A stretch of 23,795 bases of DNA, taken from the IMG/VR virus record IMGVR_UViG_3300020473_000125, positions 1-23,795 of that record. One strand, 5' to 3'. This stretch comes from a virus. Below are positions 5,625 through 13,876 of the stretch, in pieces; positions within the stretch are counted from its first letter, which is position 1; every line of letters begins with the position of its first letter. A model generated the notes under the pieces. It was not told the origin of the DNA. It saw nothing but the letters and a program-made list of their open reading frames with translations, and did no database searches. The position numbers and the translations under genes are program-made.

Positions 5625-5942
5625 TTAATGTACTTTATTTTTAACTAATTCTTCAAACAATTCTTTAGCTTTTCTAGGTTTAAAATATAAATCTCTTTCT
5701 ATTTTCATACCCATAGGTAGCTCAAGCTCTTTTAATTCATTTAAATCAAAAGAACCTACCTCTACTGCAAATAAATCTACGATTCCCCAGCAGTAATTAT
5801 CTTCAGGTGATTTATTCATTAAATACCAAGTTCCTTGTCCTACAGGATTAAAGAACTTAGCTACAACATTTTGATCCATATCAGATCCTAAGTCGTATTG
5901 TTTTTCTGCTTTAGTTTTTATTTCTTTTGTTAGTAGTTCCAT
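5625..5942 (-). CDS. DUF2958 family protein
   Basis: A 105-aa protein that matches DUF2958 in pattern: MELLTKEI at the start, NVVAKFFNPVGQGTWYLM at 25-42, WGIVDLF at 52-58, GSFDLNEL at 63-70 and IERDLYFKP at 81-89. DUF2958 proteins are common in phages and plasmids near recombination genes, with no proven activity. The start has AAGGAGAACGC upstream, and its first bases overlap the end of the 42-aa membrane gene. Confidence 0.85.
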   Translation of the reverse strand: MELLTKEIKTKAEKQYDLGSDMDQNVVAKFFNPVGQGTWYLMNKSPEDNYCWGIVDLFAVEVGSFDLNELKELELPMGMKIERDLYFKPRKAKELFEELVKNKVH

Positions 5943-6058
5943 GCGTTCTCCTTATTCTTGTTTATATATATTTTAATAGCTTTAATTGCAAATATCAGTG
6001 CTGCTATATACATAACTGACTTTACAATATAAAGTATATCAAATAATATCGTGTCCAT
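5930..6058 (-). CDS. Small membrane protein, 42 aa
   Basis: ATG at 6058-6056 with AAAGGAG upstream. The sequence begins MDTILFDILYIVKSVMYIAA and continues hydrophobic to about residue 32, then ends basic (NKNKENAWNY), so one or two short membrane spans are expected. Its end overlaps the DUF2958 start by 13 nt. The upstream hairpin at 6085-6140 separates it from the YubB-like gene. Confidence 0.7.
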   Translation of the reverse strand: MDTILFDILYIVKSVMYIAALIFAIKAIKIYINKNKENAWNY

Positions 6059-6084
6059 GTCTGCTCCTTTAGTTATTATGTAAA

Positions 6085-6140
6085 AAAAAGAGGACATAGC
6101 GTATTATGAGACTTAACATCTCTACACTGTCCTCTCTTTT
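6085..6140 (-). terminator. AGAGAACA-family stem-loop (R1) after the YubB-like gene
   Basis: The leftward RNA pairs AGAGAGGACA with UGUCCUCUUU (GAGGACA at 6090-6096 with TGTCCTC at 6128-6134, plus outer pairs), followed by a T8 run. The 31-nt enclosed segment has an inner GAGA...UCUC helix. An outer G-U appears only in leftward RNA. A further 7-bp helix, CTTCGAT (6174-6180) with ATCGAAG (6217-6223), links the gene end to this region. Confidence 0.75.
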
Positions 6141-6213
6141 ATTTTGCCTAAACCCTATCTCTGCTATATAAGCCTTCGATGGATTGGTTACTTTTCAGGT
6201 ATTAGGACTTATT

Positions 6214-6945
6214 TTAATCGAAGAACCTGTCAGGATAATTTACTTGCATACAATTATCTTCCATTTCTCCATCTCTTGCAAAAGCTTTACCTTCAAACCC
6301 CATACCTTCTTCGGTATATTCTAAGGTAAACTTTAACAATCTATACTTTTCAGTAACTTTCTGAAGCCAAGGCGTTGGTGGTGACCAAGCTGTATCAAAG
6401 CTGACGTGTAACTCGTTTTCTGTATCATAGTTAGTTTCACTTTCACCAGCATTCCACTTTGTTCCCCAATTATCAATTGACCAGTTGTACCAGTCTTTAT
6501 GACCGTACATCTTTTCATTTAATAATGCTTTCTCACCTTCTTCTATTTCAGATTTAGTTACTTCTTTTTCCATAGCTTTAAGAATTTTAAGTCTTTTAAC
6601 ATAAGTATCGTCTCCTTTCTTAAAGCCATAATGTTTAGGAGCAAACTGATATCCAGCTATTTTATCTATTTCTGTATAGTCGTCTTTAGTTTTAGCTAAT
6701 AGATATGCAATTGCTCTATCTGTTGTTGATCCTGACGTTATTCTTAATGATTCAGGCATAGGCACTGCTCCATTAAATGTTAATACTTGTGTATCATTAT
6801 CTTCACCTAGATCTCTGAAGTTTTCTTTCTTAAATCTTAACAGTTCAGCTTGAGCTTCTAATTGATTTTTTTCAATTTCTTCTGGATCTTTACTCCATTC
6901 ACCTTCAGCTTCTACTGTTAAATTATTATAGCACCAATTTGGCAT
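6214..6945 (-). CDS. YubB ferredoxin-like domain protein (DUF1281-type)
   Basis: A 243-aa protein with the hallmark N-terminus MPNWCYNNL, then FNGAVPMPE at 57-65, DNWGTKWNA at 158-166, and FDTAWSPPTPW at 183-193 followed by LEYTEEGMGFEG at 208-219. This order is typical of YubB/Api92-like proteins found on plasmids and phages, whose role is unknown. A charged helical insert spans about 110-145. Start supported by AAGGAGAA. It is coupled to the 48-aa Cys-rich gene, whose stop lies 1 nt before this start. Confidence 0.85.
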   Translation of the reverse strand: MPNWCYNNLTVEAEGEWSKDPEEIEKNQLEAQAELLRFKKENFRDLGEDNDTQVLTFNGAVPMPESLRITSGSTTDRAIAYLLAKTKDDYTEIDKIAGYQFAPKHYGFKKGDDTYVKRLKILKAMEKEVTKSEIEEGEKALLNEKMYGHKDWYNWSIDNWGTKWNAGESETNYDTENELHVSFDTAWSPPTPWLQKVTEKYRLLKFTLEYTEEGMGFEGKAFARDGEMEDNCMQVNYPDRFFD

Positions 6946-6946
6946 A

Positions 6947-7093
6947 TCATTTCTCCTTATTTTTGTTATATTCTTCTAATTCTACTTTATTGTAGCAATC
7001 TAGACAACTTGCACAAAACTCCCATTCATCATAATGATCATCTCCATAATGCTTATAAAGTATAGGTTCTCCACAACATTCTGTTACTATCAT
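6947..7093 (-). CDS. Tiny zinc-ribbon-like protein, 48 aa
   Basis: ATG at 7093-7091 preceded by the strong site AAAAAGGAGG. The protein contains a CC pair at residues 6-7 and C27-x2-C30-x2-C33 (CASCLDC), a likely zinc-binding unit, followed by an acidic/Lys tail. It is one of five tiny Cys-rich genes in the leftward block. No family name recognised. Confidence 0.75.
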   Translation of the reverse strand: MIVTECCGEPILYKHYGDDHYDEWEFCASCLDCYNKVELEEYNKNKEK

Positions 7094-8160
7094 AGTATTC
7101 CTCCTTTTTAATTATTAGCAATTCCTGCAACTTCCAGCCAGGCAATATGCATACCATATGTAAACAAACAAGGACAGTCTCCGAACTGTACTGTTTTGAT
7201 TTGTGTAAATAACGGCGTATTTACAGGAGTTTTTATGCTATTGCTAAATCTTTGAGACGAACCATAGTTATTTCGTGGCCAGTATGAGTGATCTTCATGT
7301 CGTCTCCGTACACATTGATAGAGTTACTGTTAGCTGCTGGCACAGAGCTCATCTTTGTCTATCTAGTACATTAGACCTTACCACCTGACATTATTCCGCC
7401 TTTACGATACGGTGCCTTGTGTTGGTCATAAGTTTAATCTTTGGGGAGCGACCTTTTTATGTTACTCAAGCTTGTAACGCCCACTCCCTCGGCTTCATTT
7501 ATGAGAGCCTCACATATTCCTCTCAGGACATTTAATATGGATTGAACATTTCCATAACCTTTACAGGCTTATCTACAGGACCAGTTATTGGCTCTCAATT
7601 TATAGAAAAGCTTTTTTTTCGTTTAATGGTAGTGCTTAATGTCTGTCCGCTACTAGTAACAGATTTGTATAATACCCTTATAAAACTAGTATCACTTGGG
7701 ATTTACATAAGCGTTTCGTTCATCAAGTTCCTGGAATAAACTTAGTGTAACTTCTCAGGACTGCCACTAAACTAGTTACATACTTTTCTAATTTAATTGG
7801 GAAGTATCTTTTCGACGAGATATTCCTCACAATCAATCAATTAATGTATTTTTATTTTAAATTAGTTAATTAATTGTTTAGCATTACTTCCCAAACTTGT
7901 ATATAATTCTAGAACCTAGGCTGTCTGAAGGAGAATCCCAGGTTATGCCACGCTAATGGCTTATAGACAATTTACCTAGCTCGTAGATATTCATCTCCTG
8001 GTTTAAGTTTCTGTGGCTGCTCGTGAAGAACTCTGAATCGAATCCATGGCTTACTATTCAGTTGAAGTTTCGTGAGTGCATTTTCCTCGCTTAAACCTGT
8101 CTTCATACTTAACATTATAAAACCAGCTTGTCAAATACTGGGCTAACATATAACATCTTG
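7094..8160 (-). ncRNA. Candidate large structured noncoding RNA (about 1.05 kb, no convincing gene)
   Basis: No reading frame here has both a start and a ribosome site, although every real gene nearby has one. The stretch is visibly richer in G+C than its neighbours. Helices seen: TTGGGAAGTA 7797-7806 with 7885-7894 (10 bp), enclosing CAATTAAT 7838-7845 with 7869-7876; nested 7916-7920/7975-7979, 7922-7926/7965-7969 and 7947-7950/7957-7960; TGTAAATA 7204-7211 with 7218-7225; GAGACGA 7254-7260 with 7300-7306. Short helices of 5-7 bp arise by chance at this length, so only the 10+8 bp pair and the nested set weigh much. The leftward strand is inferred from neighbours. I cannot match it to a named family. 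Confidence 0.35.
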
Positions 8161-8175
8161 TATTATTACACAAAA

Positions 8176-8232
8176 AAAAGAGAAGACTTTCGTCCACGGG
8201 ACTTGCCCATGAGGCTTTTAGCCTTCTCTTTT
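8176..8232 (-). ncRNA. Cloverleaf-shaped terminator RNA (R2), perfect four-way junction
   Basis: Read leftward, the outer stem AAAAGAGAA/UUCUCUUUU (8224-8232 with 8176-8184) holds three arms packed end to end: GGC UAAAA GCC (8213-8223), CAUGGG CAAGU CCCGUG (8195-8211, one G-U) and GAC GAAA GUC (8185-8194, a GNRA loop). Only base 8212 is unpaired at the junction. A T8 run follows. It is not a tRNA: there is no anticodon-size loop or T-loop. The outer stem belongs to the AGAGAACA family. Confidence 0.7.
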
Positions 8233-8248
8233 CTTACTCACATCTACG

Positions 8249-8314
8249 CTACAGCCGCTCGATTATGTTAGTGTAGCTCATTACGGTACCATTGGCGACA
8301 TCAATGATGTGAAT
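8249..8314 (-). CDS. Possible 21-codon ORF with AUU start
   Basis: After the 79-aa gene, AGGAG lies 9 nt before an in-frame ATT at 8314-8312, which opens IHIIDVANGTVMSYTNIIERL and a TAG. The sequence resembles part of the 87-aa protein at 9724-9987 (IQVINTYTGEVMHTANNIS followed by TIEL), sharing G-x-V-M and N-I with a final IE-x-L. No ATG, GTG or TTG is available before residue 12. It could be a gene with a rare start, a remnant, or chance. Confidence 0.25.
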   Translation of the reverse strand: MHIIDVANGTVMSYTNIIERL

Positions 8315-8326
8315 TTTTGCCTTCTC

Positions 8327-8566
8327 CTAAGATCCTTTTAGATGCTCTATTAAAGCATCATGTTCTGCTTTAGCTTGATTTCTTAAAGCTATTCTTTTCT
8401 GTCTTTCTTCATTCTTTCTTTTTAATCTATCCTTTACTATATAAGCGTCTCTTAAATATTGCATTACAGTTAGCTTATCTACATTACGATAGTTTTCTAA
8501 ATCATAGCCCATTTCATAGCCTACATCTTCAAGCCAATCAATCAGAAAGTCTTTTTGTTTTCCCAT
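8327..8566 (-). CDS. Hypothetical charged helical protein, 79 aa
   Basis: I place the start at 8566 (MGKQKDFLIDW), where GGAGATAGT precedes ATG. The longer frame up to 8599 runs into the coding part of the upstream gene and lacks a ribosome site. The product has an N-terminal globular half and a basic, Lys/Arg/Ala-rich helix from about residue 45 on. Unrecognised. It starts one base after the stop of the 53-aa gene, so the two are coupled. Confidence 0.75.
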   Translation of the reverse strand: MGKQKDFLIDWLEDVGYEMGYDLENYRNVDKLTVMQYLRDAYIVKDRLKRKNEERQKRIALRNQAKAEHDALIEHLKGS

Positions 8567-8567
8567 A

Positions 8568-8729
8568 CTATCTCCTTTTATTTCTGCCATAAGCATCAAA
8601 TAAGTTAGCTTGACTACCTTCCCAAAATTCGTAGCCTTGTTTTTTCATTTCTTCTACCGTTTCTTCAGTTAGCAGCATTGTTACCCAGTTTGAAAACTTA
8701 TTACCTCTGTATTTGTAGCGTTTCTTCAC
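8568..8729 (-). CDS. Hypothetical basic protein, 53 aa (GTG start)
   Basis: GTG at 8729-8727 follows the TAA of the 78-aa gene directly (TAAGTG), and the frame stays open to TAG at 8570-8568, one base before the next ATG. It therefore fills the gap between two genes exactly. The protein begins MKKRYKYRGNKFSNWVTMLL, continues with a Glu/Lys helix and ends basic (GRNKRR). Without its own ribosome site it probably relies on reinitiation. Family unknown. Confidence 0.65.
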   Translation of the reverse strand: MKKRYKYRGNKFSNWVTMLLTEETVEEMKKQGYEFWEGSQANLFDAYGRNKRR

Positions 8730-8966
8730 TTAAAATACTGGTAATGTTTCTGATTCACCTACAGCTAATGCTCCACCGTCATTTCCTTCGTCATCTGCCA
8801 TAGGAAATATCCAAGTTCCGTCATCTAGCTTTAAACAGACTGGTCTTGAATGCCAGCCTATACCTTCTGACTCACCTTCAGTCATCCATTCTATTGCTAC
8901 TATTTTCTTATTTAATAGAAGTTTATCTGCTTTCTTACGCCAGTATTGATGTGCATCTTTACTCAT
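8730..8966 (-). CDS. Conserved-looking phage protein, 78 aa
   Basis: The pattern KIVAIEWMTEGE, GWHSRPVCLKLDDGTW, and then IFPMADDEGNDGGAL reads as a compact beta-rich domain with a strongly structured DDGT...DDEGNDGG core, typical of small conserved phage proteins of unknown role. GGAAAGATA precedes the ATG. It overlaps the end of the 114-aa gene by 8 nt. Confidence 0.75.
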   Translation of the reverse strand: MSKDAHQYWRKKADKLLLNKKIVAIEWMTEGESEGIGWHSRPVCLKLDDGTWIFPMADDEGNDGGALAVGESETLPVF

Positions 8967-9303
8967 TATCTTTCCTCCCTATTAGTGTATTTACTATAAC
9001 TACAATAGCGTCTGAAAAATCTTTAATAGTGCTTTTATATTCGTCTAGTAAGTCTTCAACAGTTCCTTTTAAAAGCACTTTTCTTTCGTTATTTCTTACG
9101 CACATTAATGATATCCATTGCTCGTCATTAGCTGTTCCAGCTATTTCGTCATCATACTCTTCAGGACCTTCTGATTTAATAAGATCGCTTATTTTTACTT
9201 TGTATTGATCTTTATATTTAAAACAACTTAATATTTCATCAATATTTATATAAGTTCCACTTTTATCTTCAACAAGTTTCATTAATCTGTGCTTATAAAT
9301 CAT
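8959..9303 (-). CDS. Hypothetical acidic protein, 114 aa
   Basis: ATG at 9303 lies inside the end of the upstream gene, with GAGGAAAGATA before it. It is acidic, with a central segment (YDDEIAGTANDEQWISLMCV) and a hydrophobic helix near the C-terminus (about 95-108, DAIVVIVNTLIG) that is more likely buried than membrane-spanning. No family recognised. Confidence 0.7.
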   Translation of the reverse strand: MIYKHRLMKLVEDKSGTYINIDEILSCFKYKDQYKVKISDLIKSEGPEEYDDEIAGTANDEQWISLMCVRNNERKVLLKGTVEDLLDEYKSTIKDFSDAIVVIVNTLIGRKDNE

Positions 9304-9499
9304 TATCTTTCCTCCTCATTAGTTTCCAATTACCTTCCACTAGTAGTTTATGTTCTATTTTATGCATAACATCAAGTAATGATAGCTCACCGTCTTCCCA
9401 TAAATCTTCAGCAGGTACTTCTTCCCATTTATCTGCTTCATCTTGAAGCTTATGCAAAAGCATGTCTTTATCAAGTCTTATTTTTTCTTCAGGACTCAT
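9293..9499 (-). CDS. Hypothetical acidic helical protein, 68 aa
   Basis: Start set at 9499 (MSPEEKIRLDKDM), where GGAGGAAAATA precedes ATG. An ATG 15 nt upstream would overlap that ribosome site. The product is highly charged (Glu/Asp/Lys) with Leu and Trp spaced as in amphipathic helices (KWEEVPAEDLW). Unrecognised. It overlaps both neighbours slightly, as is usual in this block. Confidence 0.7.
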   Translation of the reverse strand: MSPEEKIRLDKDMLLHKLQDEADKWEEVPAEDLWEDGELSLLDVMHKIEHKLLVEGNWKLMRRKDNDL

Positions 9500-9614
9500 T
9501 ATTTTCCTCCTCATAGCAGTTTATACAGATCATTGTAAAGTCATCATAATCATGAACTTCTTCAATATCTGTATCTATAAATTTATCACAACCAAAACAA
9601 TATATTATACTCAT
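9489..9614 (-). CDS. Tiny zinc-ribbon-like protein, 41 aa
   Basis: ATG at 9614-9612 with TTGGAGGAG upstream. Two CxxC pairs, C6-x2-C9 and C30-x2-C33, are separated by an acidic strip (DTDIEEVHDYDDF), which is the layout of a small zinc ribbon. TGA at 9491-9489 overlaps the next gene. The hairpin at 9641-9726 lies directly upstream. Confidence 0.75.
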   Translation of the reverse strand: MSIIYCFGCDKFIDTDIEEVHDYDDFTMICINCYEEENNES

Positions 9615-9640
9615 AACTCCTCCAATTTATTATGTAAATA

Positions 9641-9726
9641 AAAGAGAGCAGACACTCACTTGGAGTGTTTATACTATGACTGATATTGTATAAGGTAGGT
9701 TAGAATGTCTGCTCATATTTCTCTTA
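9641..9726 (-). terminator. AGAGAACA-family branched stem-loop (R3)
   Basis: GAGCAGACA (9646-9654) pairs with TGTCTGCTC (9706-9714). The outer AAAGA arm continues to TTCTCTT after a small bulge. Inside, TTATAC (9669-9674) pairs with GTATAA (9688-9693), and CACTC (9653-9657) with GAGTG (9663-9667), giving a three-way shape. The last three bases are the TAA of the 87-aa gene, so the stem starts at the stop codon. The T-rich tail reads CTTTTATTT leftward. Confidence 0.65.
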
Positions 9727-9987
9727 CTTAACTGTTTTAACTATTACTTCTACTGTGCCTTTAAGCGTTCTCATTGCATCAAGGATCTTGTTTAATTCTA
9801 TGGTAGATATGTTATTAGCCGTATGCATAACTTCACCTGTATAGGTGTTTATTACTTGTATATCATGCTTTGGACGATTCGTTACCTCTCTTACTACCTT
9901 AGACCCTATGAAACCAACTAAATTTAACGCTTTACCTAAAGCCCAGCCTAATTTACTTACTGCCCTCGCTGTTGTTGCTTTCATCAT
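9724..9987 (-). CDS. Hypothetical protein, 87 aa
   Basis: AAGGAGATAA precedes ATG at 9987. The N-terminal 35 residues form a basic, amphipathic to hydrophobic helix (SKLGWALGKALNLVGFIG). The second half has a beta-hairpin-like motif, IQVINTYTGEVMHTANNIS, followed by a helix. The TGEV motif resembles a short candidate ORF at 8249-8314. Family unknown. Confidence 0.75.
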   Translation of the reverse strand: MMKATTARAVSKLGWALGKALNLVGFIGSKVVREVTNRPKHDIQVINTYTGEVMHTANNISTIELNKILDAMRTLKGTVEVIVKTVK

Positions 9988-10216
9988 TTATCTCCTTCTG
10001 TTGATTTTTGAACTTTTTAAAGTCTTCTTTACTATTTTTATAGTAATCTAAAACTTCCATGATCTTATCTACAGGAATTGGCATTTGTTTAAATGTTACC
10101 GCTTCTGCACTATAATCTATATATGCAATTTCTTCGTTTCTAGTTACGCTATAATTTAAAACTAGTCCATTATCATTAAATGATACCAGTGGTTTATCAT
10201 TACTTTTGTCGTTCAT
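9953..10216 (-). CDS. Hypothetical protein, 87 aa
   Basis: Start set at the ATG at 10216, with AAGGAG 5 nt upstream. A GTG two codons earlier would sit on that ribosome site. The first half is beta-rich (VSFNDNGLVLNYSVTRNEEI). The second half is a Lys/Glu/Asn-rich helix. It overlaps the downstream gene by 35 nt in another frame. Not recognised. Confidence 0.75.
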   Translation of the reverse strand: MNDKSNDKPLVSFNDNGLVLNYSVTRNEEIAYIDYSAEAVTFKQMPIPVDKIMEVLDYYKNSKEDFKKFKNQQKEINDESNNSEGSK

Positions 10217-10241
10217 ATTCACTCCTTTTTAGTGTGTTAAT

Positions 10242-10415
10242 TTACAAATTTACAGCCGTATTTACAATGTAATTTATCTCATTGTCAGAGGCTTTAATTG
10301 CTGTATCTCTTATATACATTACAGCATCCTTTTTCCCTAATCCAGCTTTTTTACAAAACCTATCAAATATATCAATAGGTATCTCAGCTGTATAGTTTAT
10401 TACTATCTTTTTCAT
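10242..10415 (-). CDS. Small protein, possible ribbon-helix-helix fold, 57 aa
   Basis: ATG at 10415-10413 overlaps the TGA of the upstream gene, with GAGGAGG upstream. The order of a short strand (KKIVINYTAEIP) followed by two helices (IDIFDRFCKKAGL and KKDAVMYIRDTAIKAS) fits a ribbon-helix-helix DNA-binding subunit in size and pattern. The identification is tentative. If correct, it may bind sites in this block. Confidence 0.65.
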   Translation of the reverse strand: MKKIVINYTAEIPIDIFDRFCKKAGLGKKDAVMYIRDTAIKASDNEINYIVNTAVNL

Positions 10416-10585
10416 TCTTCATCCTCCTCAATTTCGTATTCATGTGTATTATCTTGCATCCAGTTTGTCCAGCAATCTCCATTTCCACATAACATATTCT
10501 CTGTATCATATTCATATGTGTAATAGTTTGCATAGAATACATCTGTAAGCTTTTCATCACAATAATAACATTTATATTTACTCAT
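10412..10585 (-). CDS. Tiny zinc-ribbon-like protein, 57 aa
   Basis: Start set at 10585 (MSKYKCYYCDEKL), where GAGGAGATCAAG precedes ATG. Longer readings lie inside the upstream gene. C6-x2-C9 and C33-x4-C38 (CGNGDC) form a probable zinc site. The centre is Tyr-rich (YANYYTYEYD) and the end acidic (EYEIEEDEE). The stop overlaps the next start. Confidence 0.75.
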   Translation of the reverse strand: MSKYKCYYCDEKLTDVFYANYYTYEYDTENMLCGNGDCWTNWMQDNTHEYEIEEDEE

Positions 10586-10823
10586 CTTGATCTCCTCGCT
10601 TTGCTTCAGCTTCTTCATATATTTCTTCTGAAATATTCTTTAACCAAGTTATAGGCTCTTTTATATGGCTTATAATAGAACATACTGTTTCTTCAAGCCT
10701 ATCTAATCGCCTTTCTATATCACTTTCAGATTCTTTTTGATGATTAAGCTCTACCTCACATTGATTTAAATCTTCAAATAAATCTTGTATTTTTCTTAAT
10801 AATTCCTTTCTAGTTTCATACAT
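10578..10823 (-). CDS. Coiled-coil protein, 81 aa
   Basis: Start set at 10823 (MYETRKELLRKIQDL) with AAAGGAG upstream. Residues 3-55 are a Glu/Lys/Leu-rich helix with heptad spacing. The end is acidic. The 13-bp inverted repeat at 10844-10876 lies directly before the ribosome site and probably affects this gene. Unrecognised. Confidence 0.75.
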   Translation of the reverse strand: MYETRKELLRKIQDLFEDLNQCEVELNHQKESESDIERRLDRLEETVCSIISHIKEPITWLKNISEEIYEEAEAKRGDQDE

Positions 10824-10843
10824 AATTACACTCCTTTCTTTAG

Positions 10844-10876
10844 TTATGTTATTACAGGATAAATGTAATAACATAA
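10844..10876. promoter_or_regulatory. Perfect 13-bp inverted repeat before the coiled-coil gene
   Basis: TTATGTTATTACA (10844-10856) and TGTAATAACATAA (10864-10876) are exact inverses with a 7-nt spacer. The site lies between the R4 stem-loop and the AAGGAG of the gene at 10823. There is no T-run, so it looks like an operator or a 5' leader hairpin rather than a terminator. Confidence 0.6.
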
Positions 10877-10886
10877 AAAAAAGAGA

Positions 10887-10956
10887 AACTATAGAGTGGC
10901 TTTTTACATCATGGCTCTAAATAATTAGGCATAGCTGAATACACCACTCCATAGTT
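10887..10956 (-). ncRNA. Structured RNA/terminator R4
   Basis: Leftward RNA pairs AACUAUGGAGUGG with CCACUCUAUAGUU (13 bp, one G-U that would be A-C on the other strand). UCUC and a T8 run follow. The 44-nt enclosed part contains CUAA...UUAG and other short helices. It follows R5 with only two bases between, so R5 and R4 form a gene-free RNA unit. Confidence 0.6.
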
Positions 10957-10958
10957 GT

Positions 10959-11053
10959 AAAGAGAGAGACCACGCTTGCTAGTCCGCCACATTTGACTAG
11001 TTTTGTTCGGCAATTTTCTAACGGATGGTGGTTTTAGCCGTAACTCTCTCTTT
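10959..11053 (-). ncRNA. Structured RNA R5
   Basis: A perfect 10-bp closing stem, AAAGAGAGAG (10959-10968) with CTCTCTCTTT (11044-11053). Inside are two arms: CTAGTC (10979-10984) with GACTAG (10995-11000), and CGGC (11008-11011) with GCCG (11037-11040). Both loops carry complementary UGUGG/CCACC runs that could form a loop-loop contact. G+C content is higher than around it, and no frame is usable. Confidence 0.5.
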
Positions 11054-11068
11054 AAATATATACTAAAA

Positions 11069-11096
11069 AAGAAAGAGGACATAAGTCCTCTCTCTT
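11069..11096 (-). terminator. Terminator hairpin R6 of the 94-aa gene
   Basis: GAGGAC (11075-11080) pairs with GTCCTC (11085-11090) around ATAA. Outer pairs continue to the AAGAAA/TCTCTT arms with one G-U in leftward RNA. Leftward it is followed by CTTTCTTTTTT. It begins 8 nt past the stop of the gene at 11104. Confidence 0.8.
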
Positions 11097-11103
11097 AAAG
11101 CGA

Positions 11104-11388
11104 TTACTTAGCTTGAAGCATGGTAATCAGATCGTTTGATAACTCTGATGAATTATCTTGCTTAAACTGCATATAAGCAATAAAGCCTTGATTAGAAGAT
11201 GTAGCTCTGAACTCCCCTTGGCATTTACTTAGCTTATAATGCTTGCTAGCCATAAGTTCTGTCCAACCCTCATCTTTCTGATAAACTGCGAAATTAGCCT
11301 CTGGATTCCAAGGTGTATCAGGTGTAGCCTGAAAATCCCTATTATTAGATGCTATTTCTCCAACTTTCTTAAACCATAGTATTTTCAT
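11104..11388 (-). CDS. Hypothetical protein with KDEGWTE motif, 94 aa
   Basis: Start set at the ATG at 11388 with AAGGAG 8 nt upstream. A GTG nine bases earlier overlaps that site. The product is a compact, Trp- and Phe-containing protein: MKILWFKKVGEIASNNRDF, TPDTPWNPEANFAVY, then QKDEGWTEL at about residues 40-48. The motif and its DNA (20 nt identical) recur in the 65-aa protein at 12687-12884. Family unknown. R6 ends its transcript. Confidence 0.75.
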   Translation of the reverse strand: MKILWFKKVGEIASNNRDFQATPDTPWNPEANFAVYQKDEGWTELMASKHYKLSKCQGEFRATSSNQGFIAYMQFKQDNSSELSNDLITMLQAK

Positions 11389-11449
11389 ATGAAACACTCC
11401 TTATTTAGTTAGTTATTAACAACATACAAACAAGAGAAGATGCTAGGTT

Positions 11450-11557
11450 TTAATCCTTTTCTTCTTGATTGAATATTGAAAAGACAACTTGGGCTATTAA
11501 TAATGCACCAAGATATATCATTAATAAGCCTACTAGAATTGAAAATGCCAGTCCCAT
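11450..11557 (-). CDS. Tiny membrane peptide, 35 aa
   Basis: ATG at 11557-11555 with AAAGGAG 7 nt upstream. Residues 2-28 are strongly hydrophobic (GLAFSILVGLLMIYLGALLI), followed by NQEEKD, so it should span the membrane once with an acidic C-terminus. It lies between the hairpin at 11580-11599 and the 94-aa gene. Role unknown. Confidence 0.75.
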   Translation of the reverse strand: MGLAFSILVGLLMIYLGALLIAQVVFSIFNQEEKD

Positions 11558-11579
11558 TTTTTTCTCCTTTAGTTTTAAA

Positions 11580-11599
11580 GGGAGGCTTTTACACCTCCC
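11580..11599 (-). terminator. GC-rich hairpin R8 after the 54-aa gene
   Basis: GGGAGG (11580-11585) pairs with CCTCCC (11594-11599) around an 8-nt loop. Leftward it is followed by CTTTAAAAC, only a weak U-run, so termination may be partial. Its arms differ from the AGAGAACA family. It sits 8 nt past the stop of the gene at 11607. Confidence 0.6.
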
Positions 11600-11606
11600 A
11601 TTATAT

Positions 11607-11771
11607 TTAACTTATCCAATGATTCATAATATCTTCTTCTACACAATCATCACATATTAATGTATCATCGTTATTACTGCTTAAAATCTCTGATTTACAC
11701 ATATTATAACATTTACTGCATTCTTTCCAACTATTTATATAATTAGTAATTTCATCTCTTAAATCTTTCAT
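11607..11771 (-). CDS. Tiny zinc-finger-like protein, 54 aa
   Basis: ATG at 11771-11769 with AAAGGAG upstream. Cys are at 18, 21, 25, 40 and 43 (CSKCYNMC, then CDDC), a likely zinc site between an N-terminal helix and an acidic C-terminal helix ending NHWIS. It is the fourth of the tiny Cys-rich genes in reading toward the right. Unrecognised family. Confidence 0.75.
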   Translation of the reverse strand: MKDLRDEITNYINSWKECSKCYNMCKSEILSSNNDDTLICDDCVEEDIMNHWIS

Positions 11772-11800
11772 ATTACACTCCTTTTTATTTACTACAAATA

Positions 11801-11961
11801 AAAGAGAAAATAGTATAGGTTTATATGATTTTCACACACGGGCAGTTTTATAACTTACACTTTTTACATAAGTAAATCACTTTACTTAAAACTATGTCTA
11901 GTATGTGCACATCTGCACAAAAAGCTACAGTCCCCCCATTCTCCTATACTACTATCTCTTT
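11801..11961 (-). ncRNA. Structured RNA R9, 161 nt, long closing stem
   Basis: Ends pair over 19 positions: 11801-11819 with 11943-11961, 17 Watson-Crick pairs, one leftward G-U and one mismatch. Inside, AAGTAAA (11870-11876) pairs with TTTACTT (11881-11887) around a loop that reads GUGA (GNRA type) leftward, and TGTGCA (11904-11909) pairs with TGCACA (11914-11919). A six-G run occurs near the 5' end. Leftward a T-rich tail follows (CTCTTTTATTTG). No open frame is credible. It could be a processed small RNA as well as a terminator. Confidence 0.6.
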
Positions 11962-11974
11962 AATTACACAAAAG

Positions 11975-12045
11975 AAAGAGAACATAATATAGATATTGTT
12001 CCTAGTTTCATTAGTCTTCCCTATCTACATTATAATGTTCCCTTT
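11975..12045 (-). terminator. AGAGAACA-family long stem-loop (R10)
   Basis: AAAGAGAACATAAT... (from 11975) pairs with ...ATTATAATGTTCCCTTT (to 12045), about 20 pairs with a small bulge and G-U wobbles in leftward RNA, and a loop of about 26 nt. It follows R11 directly and shares a 27-nt exact left flank and arm with it. With R9 and R11 it fills 320 nt with no gene. Confidence 0.65.
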
Positions 12046-12061
12046 TAATTACACAAAAGAA

Positions 12062-12087
12062 AGAGAACATCGGTTAAAATGCTCTCT
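12062..12087 (-). terminator. Terminator hairpin R11 of the 56-aa gene
   Basis: AGAGAACAT (12062-12070) pairs with ATGCTCTCT (12079-12087), one leftward G-U, loop 8 nt. Leftward it is followed by CTTTCTTTTG. It lies 7 nt past the stop of the gene at 12095. Confidence 0.8.
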
Positions 12088-12094
12088 CTCTATA

Positions 12095-12265
12095 TTATAT
12101 GCAGTCTTGGTATAGCTCATAAGCTTGAAATAACATGAAATCATTATTAGGATTTTCATCTAAGAATATTAGTGCATCTATATGTTTCTGTTTCCAAGCC
12201 TCAAATTCTAAAGTCTTTCTTTCTTTGAGCATTATCCAATGTGCTTTTATTTGTTCTTTATTCAT
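12095..12265 (-). CDS. Hypothetical protein, 56 aa
   Basis: ATG at 12265-12263 with TAGGAGATATT upstream. The product begins MNKEQIKAHWIMLKERKTLE and is almost wholly helical and charged, with acidic and aromatic residues near the end (LFQAYELYQDCI). It is flanked by R12 upstream and R11 downstream, so it is a single-gene unit. Not recognised. Confidence 0.75.
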   Translation of the reverse strand: MNKEQIKAHWIMLKERKTLEFEAWKQKHIDALIFLDENPNNDFMLFQAYELYQDCI

Positions 12266-12291
12266 AATATCTCCTATTTATCATAAAGAAA

Positions 12292-12322
12292 AGAGAACAC
12301 CCTATATAATAGGATGCTCTCT
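12292..12322 (-). terminator. Terminator hairpin R12 of the 53-aa gene
   Basis: AGAGAACACCCTA (12292-12304) faces TAGGATGCTCTCT (12310-12322): 13 pairs in leftward RNA including two G-U, loop 5 nt. Leftward CTTTTCTTT follows. It starts 7 nt past the stop of the gene at 12329. Confidence 0.85.
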
Positions 12323-12328
12323 AATAAG

Positions 12329-12490
12329 TTATCTACGGCTATTAATTCTGATATGTTGAACTGCCATATCATAGTTAGTAAATACTTTCTCTGCTAATAC
12401 ATCTCCATGATTGTCAATATGCTGTACAACATATTCCCAATTATAATAACTATCTGATTCACAGAATTGAGTGATAAGATTAAGTGTCAT
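12329..12490 (-). CDS. Hypothetical protein, 53 aa
   Basis: ATG at 12490-12488 with AAGGAGTAAAAGCT upstream. The product begins MTLNLITQFCESDSYYNWEY and has a beta-strand-helix pattern with VVQHIDNHGDVLAEKVFTNY, ending basic (RINSRR). It is a single-gene unit between R13 and R12. No family recognised. Confidence 0.75.
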   Translation of the reverse strand: MTLNLITQFCESDSYYNWEYVVQHIDNHGDVLAEKVFTNYDMAVQHIRINSRR

Positions 12491-12530
12491 AGCTTTTACT
12501 CCTTATTTGTTATATCATATCATAAAAAAA

Positions 12531-12633
12531 AGAGAACACCCTTTATTAATATTCGTGTTGTACCTCACTCAATTATCTACACTATACAAAGGAAGCCTTC
12601 CACCGTCGGCTCTTGTAGTAAAAGATGTTCTCT
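12531..12633 (-). ncRNA. Structured RNA R13 between two terminators
   Basis: The closing stem is AGAGAACACCCTTT (12531-12544) with AAAAGATGTTCTCT (12620-12633), 14 pairs with two leftward G-U. The 75-nt interior includes AGCC...GGCT and CTAC...GTAG arms. R14 ends immediately upstream in leftward order and a T8 run follows R13, so this RNA is bounded by terminators with no gene inside. A small RNA or a doubled terminator is possible. Confidence 0.55.
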
Positions 12634-12645
12634 CTCATAAAAAAA

Positions 12646-12675
12646 AGAGAACACCCTCTAAATAGGATGCTCTCT
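12646..12675 (-). terminator. Terminator hairpin R14 of the 65-aa gene
   Basis: AGAGAACACCCT (12646-12657) pairs with AGGATGCTCTCT (12664-12675): 12 pairs in leftward RNA with two G-U, then a T8 run. It lies 11 nt past the stop at 12687. Confidence 0.85.
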
Positions 12676-12686
12676 TATTGATATGA

Positions 12687-12884
12687 TTAAAAAGGCTTTT
12701 CTGTCCAACCCTCATCTTTAGGAACTGAGGTAGGATTATCATCTTCTTCTACAGGATTATTATCTGTATTATATTTCTCAGCTAATATCCTTCCCTGTCT
12801 CTGACCTTCTTCAAATGCATACCTACATTCTTCAATATTTCTGCCTATTGACTTAGCAATATAGCATTTAAGATTATGTAACAT
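12687..12884 (-). CDS. Hypothetical protein with KDEGWTE tail, 65 aa
   Basis: AAAGGAGTAACT precedes ATG at 12884. The N-terminal half is a basic helix (MLHNLKCYIAKSIGRNIEEC); the second half is acidic and Pro-rich, ending PKDEGWTEKPF. The final motif matches one in the 94-aa protein at 11104-11388. A palindromic site lies just upstream of the ribosome site. Family unknown. Confidence 0.75.
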   Translation of the reverse strand: MLHNLKCYIAKSIGRNIEECRYAFEEGQRQGRILAEKYNTDNNPVEEDDNPTSVPKDEGWTEKPF

Positions 12885-12896
12885 AGTTACTCCTTT

Positions 12897-12919
12897 CTCA
12901 CATTGTGAGGTTAATTAAC
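12897..12919. promoter_or_regulatory. Paired palindromes before the 65-aa gene
   Basis: CTCACA-T-TGTGAG (12897-12909) is followed directly by the palindrome GTTAATTAAC (12910-12919). The pair lies between R15 and the AAGGAG of the gene at 12884, where a promoter or operator for that single gene would be expected. The function is inferred. Confidence 0.4.
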
Positions 12920-12928
12920 ATAAAAGAA

Positions 12929-12954
12929 AGAGAACACACATAAGTATGCTCTCT
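12929..12954 (-). terminator. Terminator hairpin R15 of the 60-aa gene
   Basis: AGAGAACACAC (12929-12939) pairs with GTATGCTCTCT (12944-12954): 11 leftward pairs including two G-U, loop ATAA. Leftward CTTTCTTTTATG follows. It starts 6 nt past the stop at 12960. Confidence 0.85.
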
Positions 12955-12959
12955 ATCTA

Positions 12960-13142
12960 TTACCCAATCGTTACCTCATACCACATTTCTCCATTTTCTA
13001 CTGGATTCTGTAAGCTTTTCATCACAATTATGTGTAAAGGCTTAGCACTTAGACCAGGAAAATCGCTGTTGTTATTAGATAGCACGATAGAATTTAGTAT
13101 GTCTGATGTACACATTAAAGTATACTCATTTAATTGAATCAT
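12960..13142 (-). CDS. Hypothetical protein, 60 aa
   Basis: AAGGAGATATATT precedes ATG at 13142. The sequence is beta-rich (MIQLNEYTLMCTSDILNSIV ... PLHIIVMKSL ... EMWYEVTIG) and suggests a small barrel or sandwich. It is a single-gene unit between R16 and R15. Unrecognised. Confidence 0.75.
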   Translation of the reverse strand: MIQLNEYTLMCTSDILNSIVLSNNNSDFPGLSAKPLHIIVMKSLQNPVENGEMWYEVTIG

Positions 13143-13179
13143 AATATATCTCCTTAGTTTTTATCATATCATAAAGAAA

Positions 13180-13204
13180 AGAGAACATCGTAAGGATGTC
13201 CTCT
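13180..13204 (-). terminator. Terminator hairpin R16 of the 36-aa gene
   Basis: AGAGAACATC (13180-13189) pairs with GATGTCCTCT (13195-13204), 10 leftward pairs with one G-U. Leftward it is followed by CTTTTCTTTATG. It lies 6 nt past the stop at 13210. Confidence 0.85.
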
Positions 13205-13209
13205 ATCTA

Positions 13210-13320
13210 TTAATCTATTGTGTTGTAATCGTCGCAGTAATCATCAAAGATGCAATCAACACATCTATCGTTGTTGTGTTCTGCTTCGTGTTTACAATTC
13301 TTAGTGCTACATTTCTTCAT
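13210..13320 (-). CDS. Tiny Cys-rich protein, 36 aa, first gene of the leftward block
   Basis: ATG at 13320-13318 with AGGAGATAATACC upstream. Cys at 4, 9, 20, 23 and 29 with His 11 and 15 (MKKCSTKNCKHEAEHNNDRC, then VDCIFDDYC) suggest a small metal-binding fold. As the first gene after the divergent region it should be among the earliest leftward products. Family unknown. Confidence 0.75.
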   Translation of the reverse strand: MKKCSTKNCKHEAEHNNDRCVDCIFDDYCDDYNTID

Positions 13321-13360
13321 GGTATTATCTCCTGGATTATGTTATTATATCATACAATAA

Positions 13361-13383
13361 AGAGAACATACTCTCTGGTATGT
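13361..13383 (-). promoter_or_regulatory. First AGAGAACA-family element (R17), leader hairpin
   Basis: ACATAC (13366-13371) pairs with GTATGT (13378-13383). The AGAGA arm is present but its partner is missing, so this copy is truncated. It precedes the first leftward gene, where TATGATATAAT (a possible -10 box) occurs at about 13340-13352. No clear -35 box is visible. It may mark a leader or an attenuator. Confidence 0.4.
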
Positions 13384-13460
13384 GTGTGGATTTCTAAATA
13401 AGTATGTGTGTGTCTTATGTATAAGGGATACTGTGAGTGTTTAGGTTACTTATATGTTTA

Positions 13461-13545: not shown

Positions 13546-13600
13546 GGTTGAATAGGTTGAACTGAATGGATTGAACTCAACGGAATCAACCTAGGCAACC
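13546..13600. repeat. GGTTGAA repeats forming a two-part inverted repeat
   Basis: GGTTG (13546-13550) and AGGTTGA (13554-13560) face TCAACCT (13586-13592) and CAACC (13596-13600): 5 plus 7 bp separated by a symmetric 3-nt internal loop. The left arm holds tandem copies of GGTTGAA with a third variant, GGATTGAA, in the loop. Iteron-like repeats next to a hairpin between divergent gene blocks suit an origin or a regulator site. A further GGGGGG run lies at 13611-13616. Confidence 0.55.
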
Positions 13601-13690
13601 GTAAAACATAGGGGGGTACCTAACCTCACTCTTTAACACATCCATTCTGAAATAACTTTTTAAATTATACTCTCCTTTGTATATTAGAGT

Positions 13691-13876
13691 ATGGATTATG
13701 ATCGTTTCGATATAACATTAGGTAAATTCCTTAAGATGAATGAAGTTGAAAAGGAAGATGTATACGATAAGATCATGGAAGACTTTAAGTTATATGAAGC
13801 AGAACGTAAGATAGTATCTGCTATAATACAGAAAAAATTAAGTGAAATGTCTAGGGAGAGTGAGGATTTACATTAA
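13691..13876 (+). CDS. Hypothetical acidic protein, 61 aa
   Basis: First gene of the rightward block. ATG at 13691 has only a weak site (TTAGAG). The product begins MDYDRFDITLGKFLKMNEVE and is charged and helical, a size and place typical of small proteins ahead of terminase genes. A DNA-binding or packaging-accessory role is possible but not shown. Confidence 0.6.
   Translation: MDYDRFDITLGKFLKMNEVEKEDVYDKIMEDFKLYEAERKIVSAIIQKKLSEMSRESEDLH

Follow-up and report, generated by a model that had tools for sequence, protein, structure and literature searches.

T4-type phages reportedly carry composite promoter-terminator stem-loops, known as PeSLs and attributed to Arbiol (2010) and Comeau (2014), which have been proposed as mediators of gene shuffling. 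Two further kinds of repeat are described in mycobacteriophages: the ESAS of Cluster K, 17-bp imperfect inverted repeats coupled to a start-associated sequence of 13 bp, and the stoperators of Cluster A, 13-bp DNA sites that regulate transcription (PMC3203893). Here we compare these systems, ordinary Rho-independent terminators and large phage RNAs with the virus record IMGVR_UViG_3300020473_000125, a whole linear IMG/VR record of 23,795 nt from a marine bacterial virus (hereafter the window; probably a fragment of a genome), in which hairpins sharing one arm pair, AGAGAGCA/UGUUCUCU, recur between the tiny genes of a leftward operon. We favor a two-layer explanation, to which we assign a probability of about 0.68, namely that terminators and modular RNAs occupy shared gaps of this operon. 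The stretches enclosed by the larger stems are conserved structured RNA modules, a point that the first-pass annotation of this DNA had missed, and the existence of a new class of modular RNA, to which at least two of the enclosing stems belong, is well supported.

ESAS are the nearest published precedent for the genome-specific uniformity of the arms: they too are inverted repeats, occur several times per genome in gaps between non-structural genes and have a subcluster-specific consensus (PMC3203893), just as the consensus of the inverted arms studied here varies by phage group. The window hairpins differ in their position behind stop codons, in the T-runs at their ends and in the lack of the 13-mer, which was not found at start codons in the linkers between hairpin and next gene. 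PeSLs are likewise reported to be terminator stem-loops between small variable genes (PMC4503421), but no promoter was found in the window gaps, which have almost no room for one. Ordinary Rho-independent terminators share the stem, short loop, T-run, post-stop position and strand specificity, but neither the uniform arms nor so close a spacing, at about one hairpin for each small gene; no within-genome arm excess is seen in RB49 and in most of 20 unrelated viral loci. Stoperators resemble the window elements as numerous oriented repeats in gene gaps and differ in being DNA sites rather than RNA hairpins with T-runs. Finally, GOLLD, ROOL and other ornate RNAs (PMC12286853) are large structured non-coding RNAs of phage genomes, as may be found here, but the present elements gave no Rfam match at relaxed thresholds and are made up of short sockets and of cargo modules, which reappear at other loci.

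Two recurrent structures, which we term sockets A and B, and probably a third, module G, follow a common plan in which invariant internal loops lead to an exchangeable cargo hairpin at the tip. The motif A 17-mer CAATAACTGGTCCTRTA occurs exactly in at least 119 IMG/VR contigs, a count whose chance expectation depends on the size of IMG/VR; this is not so for the paired 3' half, around GGAATATGTGA, which is present in 109 of 126 occurrences, nor for covariation. The layout runs outer stem, AAUAACUGG, UCCU, RUAAG, UCCU, cargo, AGG, CAA, AGGA, AUAUGUGA, outer stem. Across 43 distinct copies with the cargo trimmed, the outer stem covaries: it is paired in 99% of cells, both sides have changed in 7 of 9 pairs, and the whole-structure covariation score is 0.364, compared with 0.125 after shuffling (0/500) and 0.05-0.10 when slid. 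Motif A lies in gene gaps, at a median of 14 nt after the stop and 26 nt before the start codon, and 73 of 91 motif A loci encode proteins homologous to those of the window (helicase, Erf, RusA, terminase or others). None of 50,697 phage records held a credible match, so studies of those phages could not have found motif A; plasmids held none either, and the GTDB genomes yielded one match, on a contig with the same phage-gene homologues that is labelled Flavobacteriales.

The cargo is exchanged within this frame. The 85 motif A elements compared include 24 pairs whose flanks are homologous (at least 75%) on either side; two of these pairs keep the cargo, and it is replaced in the remainder. 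In seven pairs the cargo is near-identical although the flanks are unrelated, and the arms often differ as well. When the cargos of A and B are pooled (n=126), 54 fall into 19 recurring families, three of which are found in both sockets. Sockets can also be empty, as in motif A of L160 (UGUA loop) and motif B of L257 (GAAA loop), L-numbers being our labels for the compared viral loci. In L083 (4278-4124), L175, L261 and L221, a second socket is nested at the first junction of motif A (CCTGTA...TACAGG, then AATAAGTCC), and these copies would represent branched or stacked modules. As a separate observation, the motif A cargo of L190 contains, near position 1683, a tRNA T-arm-like hairpin (GTAGGGTTCGAATCCCTTGTC), where ARAGORN calls no tRNA. 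Four loci (L195, L180, L160 and L163) have long inverted repeats with differing arms in many gene gaps, and more RNA classes are likely to exist in the wider set of motif A phages.

Motif B is represented by a 25-mer found exactly in 44 contigs, with the 3' half present in 41 of 44 distinct copies. Its arms are mostly GAGAGAG/CUCUCUC; in L094 they are AGGGUA/UACCCU, and the terminators of that genome have GGGUAGG/CUUACCC. Cargo C was found in 11 contigs. It is housed by motif A or a variant form in L186, L245, L317, L321 and L322, by motif B in L279 and, with one change, in L305, and by further hairpins in L316 and L318-L320. L083 carries it in its large RNA region, and the window inside the terminator stem of the element at 8176. 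Searching the window against Rfam 15 at relaxed thresholds produced two sub-threshold matches only, both away from the elements described here, and the same search of 11 motif A loci gave a single unrelated sub-threshold match. As far as Rfam 15 and the literature searched (no preprints) reach, motifs A and B and cargo C appear to be new RNA families.

The balance tips slightly towards a modular RNA system of uncultured marine phages, in which sockets A, B and probably G, placed in gene gaps, show interchangeable cargo from a common library, exist in empty, filled or nested form, and have their cargo replaced at a fixed locus faster than the flanks diverge. This would resemble a cassette system operating on folded RNA domains, while the slots and arms of the window's lineage double as terminators. 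If folded RNA domains joined via invariant loops are indeed swapped between loci, they would constitute a combinatorial RNA repertoire, and we know of no other example of this kind. That cargo turns over quickly while its locus stays the same hints at a conflict with hosts or rival phages and also at a common socket-binding partner; roles of such RNAs as decoys, guides or scaffolds are testable possibilities.

The second component of the explanation, the plain hairpins, had been reported in the first-pass annotation at 11069, 12062, 12292, 12646, 12929 and 13180. A strict terminator scan of positions 5901-13450 (7.55 kb) confirmed all of them, calling six terminators on the gene (minus) strand and none on the opposite strand, compared with a mean of 0.04 and a maximum of 1 in 100 dinucleotide shuffles. 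A 3' arm with GTTCTC or GTCCTC is present in 6/6 of these terminators and in no shuffle, and the arm AAAGAGAACA, allowing at most one mismatch, is found at 19 window sites (3.5 expected; 0/100 shuffles reach 19). Chance or A/T-rich composition as the source of the hairpins is ruled out by these shuffles and the expected arm counts. The stems measure 10-14 bp, with loops of 3-6 nt and T-rich tails; they start about 4-11 nt past stop codons, much as originally described (6-12 nt), and most leave some 25-45 nt to the next start. As in intrinsic terminators, the plain hairpins sit at gene 3' ends, and a T-run directly follows the stem on the gene strand only, both in these six and in most enclosing stems. 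On these sequence features, together with compensatory changes in the stems and arms that are uniform within a genome but differ between related ones, the plain hairpins are best read as intrinsic terminators, a kind already known, with genome-specific uniformity as the unusual property.

Other parts of the initial description required revision. The statement that hairpins separate almost every tiny leftward gene applies from 13.3 to 11.1 kb and fails at 10.8-9.7 and 9.6-8.3 kb, each of which comprises five adjacent genes without hairpins between them; the gap at 11.58 kb contains a different hairpin (GGGAGG/CCTCCC). Of the eight stems said to enclose longer stretches with the shared arm, seven are truly paired (6085, 8176, 9641, 10959, 11801, 11975 and 12531); the one at 10887 closes via AACTATGGAGTGG/CCACTCTATAGTT, and only its 3' piece, TTTCTCTTTTTTTT, is shared. 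T-runs had been ascribed to most of the family, and the plain hairpins do carry them, as do most enclosing stems, but element 10959, a motif B socket, has none of its own. What had been called a truncated hairpin at 13361 is a remnant of 5-6 bp with a competing fold. The suggested spread by copying gained some support from an exact direct repeat (11959-11985 = 12044-12070, 27/27 nt) that spans the linker and 3' arm of two neighboring elements and reflects a recent local duplication. An extra hairpin, TTATGTTATTACA/TGTAATAACATAA, lies at 10839-10881, past the T-run of element 10887 and ahead of the start codon that follows.

For comparison, relatives of the window were chosen from IMG/VR by terminase, and the region left of the terminase was scanned for terminators in about 60 of them; a helicase-based search found no relative, and there is no near nucleotide relative among the 50,697 phage records. 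Where terminase identity is 67-80%, the relatives place hairpins in the corresponding gene gaps. Many of the relatives scanned carry 4-11 terminators among small leftward genes, typically 6-13 nt past the stop and about 25-45 nt before the start. Arms are uniform within each phage and differ across phages, with AGAGAGCA in the window vs AAGAGCAU, GGGUAGGC or AGAGAGUCA elsewhere; the arm pairs are GGAGAGCA/UGUUCUCC in L008, AAGAGCAUAC/GUGUGCUCUU in L118, GGGUAGGC/GCUUACCC in L102, L126, L127 and L128, and AGAGAGUCAGG/CUUGGCUCUCU in L140. Conservation of the arms in related phages had been set beforehand as a refutation test, and the outcome was divided: slot, fold and T-run are conserved across relatives, but arm sequence is not: one relative, L008, retains it almost unchanged, and the others have genome-specific arms of their own in its place. 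One widespread conserved arm was rejected as an explanation, an exact pattern search of IMG/VR for the window's arm having given 52 single matches and no relative with several copies.

Arms of one genome in the clade have a similarity of 4.03, whereas shuffling the genome labels gives 3.17 (at most 3.41 in 1000 shuffles); together with the strict scan, this bears out the earlier view of the hairpins as numerous, unusually alike and terminator-like. Hairpins after the orthologous genes of family F0 match the style of their own genome (AAGAGCAUA in L118, GGGUAGGCUC in L127, AAGGAUAGGGC in L105, GCCCUAC in L133), and hairpin similarity declines from 4.78 within the same genome to 4.05 for orthologous genes in diverged genomes and 3.35 otherwise. 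These ranks and the genome-styled orthologous hairpins indicate that the slot is inherited and that the arms are homogenized within the genome. Gene content varies among relatives and gene order is largely colinear; in the close relatives L094 and L102, hairpin places are fixed. Several genomes, these two among them, combine two arm types. The 5' arms of the clade are purine-rich (GC 0.36 vs CG 0.12; 0.23 each in other phages). G.U wobble pairs were considered as a recognition mark and dropped, their frequency (0.117) being close to the 0.135 of other phages. These terminators make it testable why arms become uniform within a phage yet change between close relatives.

The genes of the early-type leftward operon run from 13.32 to 1.46 kb, tiny for the most part and then including Erf, a DnaB-like helicase and RusA. 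Promoter-like (sigma-70-like) sites in the window occur at chance frequency (44 vs 44.6, for a consensus that may not be the host's), and the linkers between hairpin and next start contain only A/T-rich sequence and a Shine-Dalgarno motif. With promoter-like sites at chance and linkers so short, the earlier claim that each small gene becomes its own transcript is unsupported. About a dozen hairpins precede the Erf, helicase and RusA genes, all in one direction, and intergenic promoters were looked for without success; we therefore infer partial read-through, a staged override or unseen internal promoters. In the two-layer explanation, plain hairpins would terminate part of the transcripts or be overridden at some stage, and their arms would be homogenized by copying between gaps of one genome. 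Several of the larger stems close modular structured RNAs, and these cassettes would be co-transcribed with the operon and then released or left as small RNAs, with the terminator serving as closing stem in the window. A common partner would bind the invariant loops, and the cargo would carry the variable function, perhaps against host or rival factors. Termination, processing and small-RNA release are thereby predictions from sequence.

Several results weigh against this reading. The identity measure behind the 22/24 cargo replacements is crude where lengths are unequal. Arm sharing between socket and terminator is clear only in the window, L008 and L094; over all loci the link is weak, with 23 cases vs 18 expected and values as high in 37 of 1000 shuffles. 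Only 12 of 93 motif A cases have a T-run, so sockets in general are not terminators. In addition, motif A was found in 3 of 86 loci picked by terminase alone (a search that missed the nested L083 copy), and five loci (L133, L134, L149, L097 and L005) show no within-genome arm excess.

These results also bear on other explanations. One that we regard as tentative and somewhat unlikely holds that the repeats are chiefly recombination cassettes like the T4-type PeSLs, copied around and allowing small genes to be swapped with the help of the Erf annealing protein, with termination secondary. The exact 27-nt repeat at 11959/12044, the uniformity of arms within a genome, the Erf homologue of the phage and the cargo exchange, which implies that short modules move, agree with this proposal, but no promoter part was found, and both the fixed hairpin places in L094/L102 and the largely colinear gene order speak against it; moreover, it accounts for origin more than function and is compatible with termination. 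Uniform, genome-specific arms would also be expected if a single sequence-specific factor (a terminator protein, an antiterminator or a stoperator-type repressor) read them, arm and factor changing together between phages, and a leader hairpin with the same arm precedes the first gene in both the window and L008. We consider such a factor improbable, given that none was identified, that arms vary inside one genome, that several genomes (L102 and L094 included) have two types, and that the conserved leader block lacks RNA structure.

Long stems in gene gaps where no promoters were found, and the want of a T-run in most motif A cassettes, are compatible with processing sites at which an RNase III-like or other endonuclease separates cistrons without termination. 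However, processing needs no T-run, yet in the window both the plain hairpins and the majority of enclosing stems have one, on the gene strand only, and plain stems of mostly 10-14 bp are short for RNase III, making this account doubtful. Riboswitch-like or translation-control elements acting on the downstream gene would fit the invariant internal loops and the median distance of 26 nt upstream of the start codon. They would hardly fit a cargo that changes while the neighboring sequence stays constant, or the same sockets at unrelated loci, and we give this possibility little credence. The coordinates of the elements that enter into the two-layer explanation are compiled in Table 1.

Table 1. 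Hairpins, enclosing stems and RNA modules of the leftward operon in the window.
Position	Strand	Feature	Remarks
6085..6140	-	terminator stem AAAGAGAGGACA/UGUCCUCUUUU around 26 nt, then T8	
7110..8165	-	stretch free of open reading frames (ORF-free), 1.05 kb in gene-dense region	terminator before, hairpin-less gene after
7327..7436	-	module common to L228 (84.5% over 110 nt)	partly cargo of L285 motif B element
7501..7598	-	motif A socket with its own cargo	covariance-model match E 2.3e-11, 54 bits
7725..7797	-	module G, AAGUAUGUAACUAGUUUAGURGCAGUCCUGAGAAGUUACACUAAGUUUAUUCCAGGAACU	98.6% over 72 nt with L273; ~18 loci
8172..8233	-	terminator stem AAAAGAGAAGGCU/AGUCUUCUCUUUU carrying cargo C (AAGCCUCAUGGGCAAGUCCCGUGGACGA), then T8	
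9641..9720	-	stem GAGCAGACAUUC/GAGUGUCUGCUC around insert, then T-rich tail	
10885..10956	-	structured element, closing stem AACUAUGGAGUGG/CCACUCUAUAGUU, then TTTCTCTTTTTTTT; shared arm unpaired	
10957..11062	-	motif B socket UUACGGCUAAAACCACCAUCCGUUA ... AAGCGUGGUC, closing stem AAAGAGAGAG/CUCUCUCUUU, cargo with ACUAGUC..GUGGCGGACUAGC	
11069..11096	-	plain terminator hairpin	after gene 11104-11388
11801..11965	-	stem AAAGAGAUAGUAGUAUAGG/CCUAUACUAUUUUCUCUUUU around ~125 nt multi-hairpin RNA, then T-rich tail	
11975..12045	-	stem around insert; downstream end duplicates 12044-12070 (27/27)	
12058..12091	-	plain terminator hairpin	after gene 12095-12265; hairpin loop of L008 ortholog near-identical (TTAACC/TTAACT)
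12292..12322	-	plain terminator hairpin	after gene 12329-12490
12529..12636	-	stem AGAGAGAACAUC/GGUGUUCUCU around structured insert, then T-run	
12645..12676	-	plain terminator hairpin	after gene 12687-12884
12929..12954	-	plain terminator hairpin	after gene 12960-13142
13180..13204	-	plain terminator hairpin	after 36-aa gene 13210-13320
13360..13377	-	truncated arm pair, 5-6 bp remnant, competing fold	leader ahead of first leftward gene; L008 counterpart complete (3251-3215)

The ORF-free stretch, in which neither an Rfam match nor a tRNA was found, probably represents one large RNA put together from modules that other phages also carry. Within it, window positions 7330-7350 (-) read GTGCCAGCAGC, which we take to be the same sequence as the 530-region core of 16S rRNA; this segment is not kept in L228, and the likeness is probably due to chance.

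The divergent control region at about 13.57-13.69 kb (window 13570-13694) is strongly conserved and also present in L003, L008 and about 25 more loci; it contains a C-tract, and GTTGAGTT is invariant in 16 aligned phages. For the leader block of these 16 phages, RNAalifold predicts 0 pairs. An antitermination leader of the HK022-put type was rejected, since a conserved DNA block without conserved RNA structure leaves a put-like antiterminator unsupported; the region is possibly an origin, operator or promoter rather than RNA. The phage single-subunit RNA polymerase family PF00940 was matched in 0 of 20 relatives, all of which may be fragments, and the control set was likewise without a match. 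Rightward genes, among them terminase, portal and major head protein, follow from 13.69 kb on. In L003 and L008, the rightward operon starts with TTGAAG, a spacer of 16-17 nt, TATATT and about 5 nt to the ATG, and the window has the same promoter-like layout with a weaker -35 at about 13655-13693; the first rightward gene may be leaderless. Where the two operons converge, a terminator hairpin, AAAAGAGGGAC/GTCCCTTTTTT, is located at window positions 1381-1356.

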